Source of the DNA: Flavobacteriales bacterium
Lineage (GTDB): Bacteria > Bacteroidota > Bacteroidia > NS11-12g > UBA955
Reading direction: 5' to 3'
Assembly (NCBI GenBank): GCA_947463095.1
Contig: CANHRE010000024.1
Span: 1-35,575, forward strand
DNA length: 35,575 nucleotides
The notes under the pieces are model-generated. The model was not told the origin of the DNA, did not search any database, and saw only the letters and a program-made list of their open reading frames with translations. Shown in pieces: positions 10,528-12,806 of the stretch. Each line of letters begins with the position of its first letter. Positions within the stretch are counted from its first letter, which is position 1. The position numbers and the translations under genes are program-made.

Positions 10528-11757
10528 ATGGCTGAAATCATCAGAATGCCCAAGATGAGCGATACCATGACCGAAGGGGTTGTGGTGAAATGGCTTGTGA
10601 AAGAGGGCGATCAGATAAAATCCGGTGACATCATTGCTGAGGTAGAAACCGATAAGGCTACCATGGACTTTGAATGCTACAGTAAAGGAACCCTTTTGTA
10701 TATAGCGGTAAAAGAGGGGCAATCTGTGCCCGTGGATGGCGTGGTGGCCGTAGTTGGTCAGCCCGGAGAAGATTTCCAGAGCCTGTTGTCCGGATCTCCT
10801 GCGGCAGATACCACGGTAGCCGCTGTTGTGGAAGCACCTGCCGCCCAGGCTCCTGCTGCGGTTAGTGCACCGGTACAACAGCCATCTGCACCGCTGAGCA
10901 CCGACAGAATTCTTGCTTCTCCTTTGGCTAAGAAGCTCGCTGCCGATAAAGGAATTGACCTTGCCGCGGTTAAAGGCAGTGGTGAAAATGGCCGCATTGT
11001 AAAGCAAGACGTTGAGGCCTTCCAGGGTATGCCCGCAACGGTTTCTGCTCCTGCCATTGCTGTTGTTGCAGGAACTGAAAGCTATGAAGAGGTTCCGGTA
11101 TCGCAGATGCGTAAAACCATCGCCGCGCGCCTCAGCGAAAGCAAATTCAGCGCCCCCCATTTCTACCTGACCATCGAAATAAACATGGATAAGGCCGTGG
11201 CTGCGCGCGAGCAGATGAACCAGATCAGCGAAGTGAAAATAAGCATGAACGACCTGGTAATCAAAGCGTCAGCCGCCGCATTACGCAAGCATCCAAAGAT
11301 CAACAGCTCCTGGCTGGGCAACACCATCCGTTACAACCACCACATCAATATAGGTGTGGCCATGGCGGTGGAAGAAGGCCTGCTGGTTCCCGTGGTGCGC
11401 TTTGCCGACCAGAAAAACCTAAGCCAAATCAGCAGCGAAGTGAAGGACTATGGTGCTCGCGCCAAGGCAAAGAAGCTACAGCCTCAGGACTGGGCAGGCA
11501 ATACCTTTACCATCAGCAATTTGGGCATGTTTGGCATTGAAGAGTTTACGGCCATCATCAACCCACCCGATGCCTGCATTCTTGCCGTGGGCGCGGTGAA
11601 AGACACAGTGGGCGTGGTAAACGGACAAATCCAGCCGGTTAAGGTGATGAAAGTAACCCTGAGCTGTGACCACCGCGTGGTGGACGGCGCCAGCGGTGCC
11701 CAGTTCCTGCAAACCCTGAAGCAACTGCTCGAAGAGCCGGTGCGATTGCTGGTTTGA
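10528..11757 (+). CDS. pdhC: Dihydrolipoamide acetyltransferase (E2) of pyruvate dehydrogenase, single lipoyl domain
   Basis: E2 is the core of an alpha-keto acid dehydrogenase complex; it moves the acyl group from lipoate to CoA. The 409 residues hold one lipoyl domain (about 1-80, with lipoylated Lys43 in ETDKATMDFE), an Ala/Pro-rich flexible linker, a peripheral-subunit-binding domain (ILASPLAKKLAADKGIDL with GSGENGRIVKQDV), a second linker, and the catalytic domain ending in SCDHRVVDGASGAQFL with active-site His382 and Asp386. The start of the lipoyl domain (IIRMPKMSDTMTEG) is of the pyruvate dehydrogenase type. Many Bacteroidota E2 proteins carry two lipoyl domains, so one is on the short side. 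E1 and E3 genes are not adjacent. Assignment to a branched-chain or other complex is less likely but not excluded. Confidence 0.92.
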   Translation: MAEIIRMPKMSDTMTEGVVVKWLVKEGDQIKSGDIIAEVETDKATMDFECYSKGTLLYIAVKEGQSVPVDGVVAVVGQPGEDFQSLLSGSPAADTTVAAVVEAPAAQAPAAVSAPVQQPSAPLSTDRILASPLAKKLAADKGIDLAAVKGSGENGRIVKQDVEAFQGMPATVSAPAIAVVAGTESYEEVPVSQMRKTIAARLSESKFSAPHFYLTIEINMDKAVAAREQMNQISEVKISMNDLVIKASAAALRKHPKINSSWLGNTIRYNHHINIGVAMAVEEGLLVPVVRFADQKNLSQISSEVKDYGARAKAKKLQPQDWAGNTFTISNLGMFGIEEFTAIINPPDACILAVGAVKDTVGVVNGQIQPVKVMKVTLSCDHRVVDGASGAQFLQTLKQLLEEPVRLLV

Positions 11758-11814
11758 ATTTAAGTTTGAAATTTCATTAATCCTGGCGCAGCTGGGAATG
11801 GTTCCGTCCATTTC

Positions 11815-11920
11815 GCTACCCGCGTAAGGGATAGCAGCGAATAGCCCACAGGCCCGCATTTCAGGGCCGAGGACTTGCAGCGTATAGCCCGACCGCGCCG
11901 CAGGCGGGGTTACGCCCTGA
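11815..11920. repeat. GC-rich structured intergenic element
   Basis: This noncoding block between the E2 and DUF3108 genes is unusually ordered. GCGTAA (11822-11827) and TTACGC (11910-11915) form outer inverted ends. GCAGCGAATAGCCC (11834-11847) recurs with one change as GCAGCGTATAGCCC (11877-11890). Inside are the hairpins GGCCC/GGGCC (11851-11855 with 11864-11868) and CGCC/GGCG (11896-11899 with 11903-11906, loop GCA). Open frames across it are not gene-like. It could be a dispersed REP-like repeat, a structured 3' UTR of the E2 mRNA, or a small RNA. Confidence 0.5.
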
Positions 11921-11987: not shown

Positions 11988-12806
11988 TTACTTCAACAGC
12001 GCATCGAAGCTGTTCTTCAGGTTTTCGTATGCGGTGATGTCCACCTTTATGCTTCCCACCTGGATGGCGCTTTCCACACGGATTGGAATTTTGTTCTTGT
12101 CGTCGGACACCCAGATGGTCATGTCATCGTCCTCTTTGAACACGCGGTCCACCACGAGTTTCGGGCGGAGCTTGATGCAGCGTACCTTGCCTATATCCGT
12201 ATTGAGTGTCTCGCGGCCAATGAACTTAAACTGCAGGTTATATACCTTATTGTCAAGATATACATCCACAGGAAAGTTTTGGTTGAGCTTCGCTGTGCTG
12301 AAATCCAGGTTACGTGCGTAATAGATGGCAGATGCAATATCTTGGGTGTACACTGGCATAGCCATTTCGCCTTTCAGATTGCGCAGTTTCTTCTGGTCGT
12401 GGTAGTAAATTACGGCATCTGAAGCGCTGTATTTATTTTCCCTCTTGGACATGCTGTAGCGCAGTGGTGCCAGTGATTCTTCATCCAGGTAGCTGTCGAA
12501 CTTATCGCGCACCTTATACATCCAGTCGAAGCTTTTAAGTGTCTCTCCTTCGGTGCGCACCAGGAAGGCTTTGCGGGTGCCAATTTGTTGCATTACGGGA
12601 TCTACGCTCATGATGATGCGGGCCGCGTTGATTAACCCGTAGTGGGCTCTGAAGGTAAGCTTCTCGCCGGTTTTGAACGCTGTATTAGGGAACTTGCGGA
12701 AACTGAATCCGTTGTCTGAGGGGCGCTCAGCGTTCTGACGGTTGAAGGAACTGAGCACAATTCCCAGGGCCAACAGCGCGATGAAGGTATTTTTTACGGT
12801 ATTCAT
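11988..12806 (-). CDS. DUF3108 family exported protein
   Basis: This is a 272-residue protein. Residues 1-20 (NTFIALLALGIVLSSF) form a signal peptide or membrane anchor without a clear lipobox. The body matches DUF3108: FKTGEKLTFRAHYGLINAAR near residue 45, a VRDKFDSYLDEESLAPLRY block near 100, and a closing DDKNKIPIRVESAIQVGSIKVDI. The family forms a beta-rich periplasmic or envelope protein of unknown function. It lies downstream of the M16 peptidase on the same strand with a 66-base gap that holds neither a clear promoter nor a terminator, so co-transcription is plausible. It ends in the terminator at 11945-11969. Confidence 0.85.
   Translation of the reverse strand: MNTVKNTFIALLALGIVLSSFNRQNAERPSDNGFSFRKFPNTAFKTGEKLTFRAHYGLINAARIIMSVDPVMQQIGTRKAFLVRTEGETLKSFDWMYKVRDKFDSYLDEESLAPLRYSMSKRENKYSASDAVIYYHDQKKLRNLKGEMAMPVYTQDIASAIYYARNLDFSTAKLNQNFPVDVYLDNKVYNLQFKFIGRETLNTDIGKVRCIKLRPKLVVDRVFKEDDDMTIWVSDDKNKIPIRVESAIQVGSIKVDITAYENLKNSFDALLK

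Follow-up and report, generated by a model that had tools for sequence, protein, structure and literature searches.

A dispersed, structured repeat of Bacteroidota genomes related to Flavo-1

The non-coding unit at positions 11822-11917 of the window (the whole stretch of 35,575 nucleotides that was analyzed, from a Flavobacteriales bacterium) is a copy of a discrete and dispersed Bacteroidota repeat, and a real member of a structured family related to Flavo-1 (RF01705 in Rfam). Comparison of the copies supports a fold as a three-way junction, in which stem P1 closes the structure, P2 joins two near-identical 20-nt cores and P3 is a hairpin. A reading of the element as DNA is favored over a reading as RNA but unproven, and our working hypothesis is that of a folded DNA site that is either mobile or used by the host.

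Results

In the window, the unit is flanked by the E2 gene of a 2-oxoacid dehydrogenase (10528-11757, PF00198) and, convergent to this gene, by a DUF3108 gene (11988-12806, PF11306). Its limits were set by comparing copies (169 for the edges) and are slightly tighter than the 11815-11920 block of the earlier note. Read on the plus strand, it opens with the left arm of P1 (GCGTA, 11822..11826) and an unpaired A at 11827, and closes with the right arm (TACGC, 11911..11915), placed by the alignment and the flank profile. Core 1, the left strand of P2 (GGGATAGCAGCGAATAGCCC, 11828..11847), is conserved among copies and stands as a direct repeat to core 2 (GGACTTGCAGCGTATAGCCC, 11871..11890), the right strand, with which it pairs around two 3x3 internal loops. 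Folding and aligned double changes place a variable apical hairpin, P2a (GGCCC/GGGCC, 11851..11868), between the cores, and folding and the loop census place P3 (ACC-CGCC-GCA-GGCG-GGT, capped by a C(GCA)G triloop) at 11892..11910. The right tail of this copy is CCTGA (11916-11920), whereas CCAAA is usual in the family.

The layout described in the earlier note stands, with the arm length and the outer limits corrected. The outer inverted ends GCGTAA (11822-11827) and TTACGC (11910-11915) are real, but the closing pair spans 5 nt and T 11910 belongs to P3. Likewise, the direct repeat is present: GCAGCGAATAGCCC (11834) and GCAGCGTATAGCCC (11877) start 43 nt apart and belong to a direct repeat that is 21 nt long and 81% identical. 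Of the two small hairpins, both of which fold, GGCCC/GGGCC lies at 11851-11868 and CGCC-GCA-GGCG at 11896-11906.

As a side observation, in three lineages, the window included, a copy lies within ~100 nt downstream of the E2-type gene of pyruvate dehydrogenase, and in two of the three its orientation is opposite to that of the gene. In a sister species (locus L008), an HNH_2 gene stands between the E2 gene and the orthologous element, and ~0.9 kb of that locus is absent from the window at 11757-11822.

The earlier note had the impression that blocks containing ATAGCCC and GAGGACTTG occur repeatedly between genes in some Bacteroidota, and such blocks indeed recur intergenically in many members of the phylum. 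A DNA search with the block gave a match in 5 of 38 genomes (its own and those of relatives), and a scan of a genome collection with a core-2 word gave at least 119 stretches, nearly all from Bacteroidota; among the matches listed, the others came from some Spirochaetes and one assembly labeled Clostridiales. From the scan and the relatives 138 paired-core copies were gathered, later 196 distinct copies; 13 of 151 core-2 matches were dropped because core 1 was not recognizable. Most of core 2 was prescribed by the scan word, and those columns are therefore no evidence of conservation. R1, a covariance model, rests on 47 diverse copies selected for exact P1 and short loops, and scores the window copy, itself one of the 47, at 86.9 bits over model positions 1-92 of 92. 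R1 finds four copies in the window's own genome, so the block is not a single copy there. Under strict filters, R1 detected at least one copy in 57 of the 395 genomes in a sample of the phylum, and in 29 of its 171 genera. The copy number by R1 ranged from 2 to at least 150 per genome in 19 genomes, most of which were picked because copies were present; the highest count, at least 150, is that of a Spirochaetales assembly (G047), in which mis-binning is possible.

Plasmids carry the element too (blastn gave 31 records, all from Bacteroides or Phocaeicola, of which 25 are typed conjugative; R1 confirmed it on the three plasmids examined), as do five viral contigs, but blastn found none in a phage collection. 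On one conjugative Bacteroides plasmid (L300, 5001-5077), the 3' end of a serine recombinase gene directly adjoins the element. Another contig (L297) has three copies (443, 6253 and 9042), two of them near the contig ends, together with Mu-like phage genes named by eye. A gene-specific role was considered, since 22% of adjacent genes had a homolog among the other adjacent genes against 12% of non-adjacent genes in an equal-number subsample, and was set aside because the clusters are mostly orthologous Flavobacterium loci.

The earlier note had called for covariation analysis of aligned copies, and in such an alignment (A1, from which 52 of 99 distinct exact-P1 copies were excluded for long loops or similarity) pairing is kept through double changes at 17 of 26 pairs. 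The shuffled mean is 8.7, and none of 500 shuffles reached 17. Standard pairs make up 89.4% of the cells in A1, and pairing falls to at most 44% when the structure is shifted by one to three columns. All five P1 pairs show double changes in A1, the members of which were preselected for exact P1; without preselection, the exact 5-nt partner of a copy's own left end is found in 165 of 196 copies, against 70.6 after permutation, and for left ends other than GCGTG in 64 of 90, against 17.9. These 5-mer counts supersede a first test with 6-mers (21 exact of 138, against 6.0 permuted). P2a has double changes at all five aligned pairs, with 32% of its cells unpaired. Dispersed copies with pairing maintained through double changes are what was found, in place of the lone copy lacking conserved pairing that, according to the earlier note, would speak against a repeat family or structured RNA. 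The folding energy of the window element itself is unremarkable (z -0.71 as RNA, -0.59 as DNA), so that the order seen in one copy alone could be due to chance; it is the P1 partners across the family that carry the earlier impression of a block more ordered than ordinary spacer beyond chance.

P2 contains two internal loops, each with GNA facing GGA. The P3 loop census covers 165 of the 196 copies: triloops close 103 of 145 hairpins, 76 of the 103 being GNA (with all four middle bases) and 92 C-G closed, while the 19 tetraloops include one GNRA and no UNCG. Outside five high-copy assemblies a GNA loop is found in 31 of 104 copies, corresponding to 31 of 49 triloops, and in one Spirochaetales assembly in none of nine copies. 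At seven loci, P3 carries a long AT-flanked hairpin that resembles a bidirectional terminator.

The window copy matches RF01705 over the full model (positions 1-76 of 76, E 0.00041), but its 28.1 bits fall short of the 42-bit gathering score, so that this GC-rich copy is overlooked by routine annotation. Yet 10 of 19 copy-bearing genomes hold other copies that exceed the gathering score. Such copies were placed at five loci and some also match R1; two intermediates above the gathering score (L114, 2562-2640, and L057, 3412-3490) reach 54.9 and 55 bits with R1. Four Flavobacterium genomes have 53 to 115 RF01705 matches and 21 to 29 R1 matches, which likely overlap in part. The core pairing scheme, the core words and the full-model alignment are common to both, whereas the form in the window differs in its GC-rich cores, its covarying closing stem P1 and its hairpin P3; in the 76-position Rfam model, P1 and P3 are not paired. 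From the full-model match and the copies that satisfy both models, we read the window element as a GC-rich variant of the Flavo-1 family, with P1 and P3 in addition. The open-access literature searched states no function for Flavo-1, which is weak evidence of absence.

The edges of the element were profiled in 169 of the 196 copies. The left edge is sharp, with almost no information beyond ~3 nt of flank (T or C at -1, hardly any G), and the right edge nearly so, with the CCAAA tail and information fading by +7. No target duplication was found across the 169 copies. Between the related genomes G046 and G057, one site is empty, one copy has decayed and other copies are orthologous; the empty site (L237 at ~12031, compared with L201 at 9957) also differs by ~100 nt beyond the element, so precise insertion is not seen. 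Ten orthologous pairs, drawn from these two and other genomes and not all independent as some share a member, have gapless cores of 95% identity, compared with 83-85% identity and 15-21% gap columns in the flanks, although picking the pairs by motif inflates the conservation of the scaffold. Over 200 kb of two Flavobacterium species, four of four copies are common to both, one of them partly deleted, which points to old copies rather than to current movement. The copies are thus mostly inherited and mostly old.

In 41 copies of G046 and G057 (L198-L237), the apex carries an insert of 31-34 nt that is unique to each copy on an almost constant scaffold. The idea that these inserts act as guides or spacers was rejected, as they match their own locus or the fetched genome parts no better than shuffled inserts do. 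Orthologous copies carry drifted versions, and the inserts are therefore read as neutral drift.

Discussion

Integron attC sites and the ends of IS200/IS605 elements work as single strands of DNA that fold, keeping certain unpaired bases constant while their loops vary, and by analogy the element may be the same kind of substrate. The element differs from both in that we saw neither a linked transposase or integrase nor a strand bias, attC being compared by description. The explanation that we place first, tentatively and at slightly below even probability, is a Flavo-1-related repeat that works as folded DNA, is recognized by a protein and has spread in trans. When exposed single-stranded, the G-rich strand would fold into the three-way junction, closed by P1, with the P2 cores arranged around two symmetric GNA/GGA loops and with P3 as a GNA-capped mini-hairpin. 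A putative protein would recognize the folded single-stranded element and a putative enzyme would have spread copies in trans without target duplication, after which most copies would have been inherited at fixed sites, the scaffold kept and the loops left to drift. The single-stranded form, the recognizing protein, the mobilizer and any host function are all elements that we infer.

Three lines favor single-stranded DNA, none of them decisive: the P3 loop type, the mispair pattern and published transcript maps. Very stable DNA mini-hairpins are reported for GNA and GNNA loops on stems of G-C pairs (PMC4686876). Single mispairs in P1 comprise three G-U, three A-C and four others, and those in P2 eight G-U and six A-C after removal of one pair fixed by the scan word (26 G-U). 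The lack of a G-U excess over A-C leans toward DNA, since RNA should tolerate G-U more; a tRNA mispair control of five stems was too small for calibration. In Flavobacterium psychrophilum, according to a transcript study, Flavo-1 matches lie sense or antisense without preference and many are untranscribed (PMC9723704). Weighing against this explanation are the even strand division of the copies in one complete chromosome, the lower share of GNA loops outside the five high-copy assemblies, the imprecise empty site and the failure to find a mobilizer among the loci examined.

A structured RNA, raised as an alternative in the earlier note, is a serious though rather unlikely candidate. Here the element would be a small RNA or an untranslated-region element, the folded transcript of which binds a protein or protects the message. 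The covariation agrees with this, the G-A rich loops are confined to one strand, and GNA triloops are also found in RNA. In tandem gene pairs, the element lies on the strand of the genes in 40 of 61 cases and on the opposite strand in 21. Flavo-1 was graded 'probably' RNA, and probably not cis-regulatory, by Weinberg et al. (PMC2864571), and several 5' transcript regions of F. psychrophilum overlap Flavo-1 matches in the transcript study. Next to the missing G-U excess and the untranscribed matches, however, the P3 loops are GNA triloops rather than GNRA tetraloops, and by rough gene calls the copies (n = 178, 45 of them inside called ORFs and 16 at edges) occur between convergent genes (33), between divergent genes (23) and in either orientation between tandem genes. 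The type of loop and the pattern of mispairs lean toward single-stranded DNA.

Insertion into the lagging strand predicts a strand bias and was rejected, as the 104 matches in one complete chromosome divide into 50 on the plus and 54 on the minus strand, without replication-strand bias. Separately, the 12 Flavo-1 matches in one octant of a Flavobacterium genome (G038, 795-1591 kb) without exception lie on the minus strand.

That the copies are host sites, for a nucleoid or replication protein or at a transcript boundary, whose spread is ancient and unlike transposition, appears improbable. The four copies common to two species over 200 kb, the gapless orthologous cores and the several Flavobacterium copies with a terminator-like hairpin in P3 agree with such sites, but one site is empty and one copy decayed in a relative, one of the four common copies is partly deleted, copy number varies widely among genomes, and none was detected in most sampled genomes of the phylum.

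The earlier note had suggested mobilization by a REP-type transposase, and the comparison with Y1 genes does not bear this out. Like REPs and REPINs, the element is dispersed, intergenic, hairpin-forming and at times arranged in close inverted pairs: we found five such pairs with gaps below 400 nt, all of the same polarity (one at ~4320 kb in G038), and close same-strand pairs at two loci. In addition, subclass 2.6 of the RAYT transposases of Bacteroidetes is described as having 'atypical secondary structures' (PMC6006769). REPs are palindromes of 20-40 bp that carry GTAG or CGTC as a tag at the foot (PMC3733652); in contrast, the element measures ~95 nt and contains neither tetranucleotide in 11822-11917. 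Scored by R1 matches, no copy lies within 1.5 kb of any of 62 Y1_Tnp loci (one in the window's genome, the other 61 drawn from 17 of 20 copy-bearing genomes), and the copy-rich assemblies G053 and G047 each have only one weak Y1 match. The sole exception, reached by another route through an HNH gene, is locus L250: two inverted copies there enclose a Y1 gene together with an HNH_2-type gene and a vsr-like start. That the element is a REP or REPIN and owes its movement to a RAYT transposase of the Y1 type is therefore very unlikely. As a separate observation, the sole Y1 transposase found in the window's genome is flanked by short repeats of the GCCTACGGCAT and CCCTACGGGAT types (L138, 1-260 and 800-900).

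A MITE of a DDE transposase is a highly unlikely explanation, for although the element is short, non-coding and dispersed with inverted ends, its 5-nt end arms covary rather than being fixed and no target duplication accompanies the 169 copies. MITECca01 of Cardinium, a small dispersed repeat in a Bacteroidota genome as well, is described as an IS982-family derivative with inverted repeats (PMC9769881), whereas for the window element we know of no parent insertion sequence comparable to the one given in that source.

An HNH gene was rejected as the general mobilizer, since a copy was present at only 2 of 27 HNH loci in an independent sample of the class, and the gene is at most occasional cargo; an HNH_2-type gene stands beside 4 of 137 copies. 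At L114 (1492-2652) and L057 (2340-3502), such a gene lies between inverted copies, in two pieces at L057, and the unit at L114 interrupts a C5 methyltransferase gene flanked by vsr and HpaII genes. At L133 (362-1221), an HNH_2 gene and an MvaI/BcnI fragment stand on either side of a copy. Together with L250 (1107-3359), all these HNH_2-type genes with copies are in or beside restriction-modification genes. No mobilizer was found among the Y1_Tnp and HNH loci examined.

Returning to the reading as folded DNA, a broader proposal, which we consider doubtful but worth stating, is that Flavo-1 and the three-way-junction form together represent a mobile Bacteroidota repeat that folds as single-stranded DNA and is not of the REP, MITE or attC kind (attC again by description), in which inverted pairs can carry genes and a putative recombinase reads the GNA-rich fold. 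Carriage between inverted pairs is exemplified by the HNH endonuclease unit inserted in methyltransferase genes. Flavo-1 has been catalogued as a probable small RNA since 2010. If the element does act as folded DNA, RNA catalogues would be misfiling a DNA element, mobile or chromosomal, and pull-down with single-stranded DNA would offer a way to test a repeat that is widespread in a major phylum.
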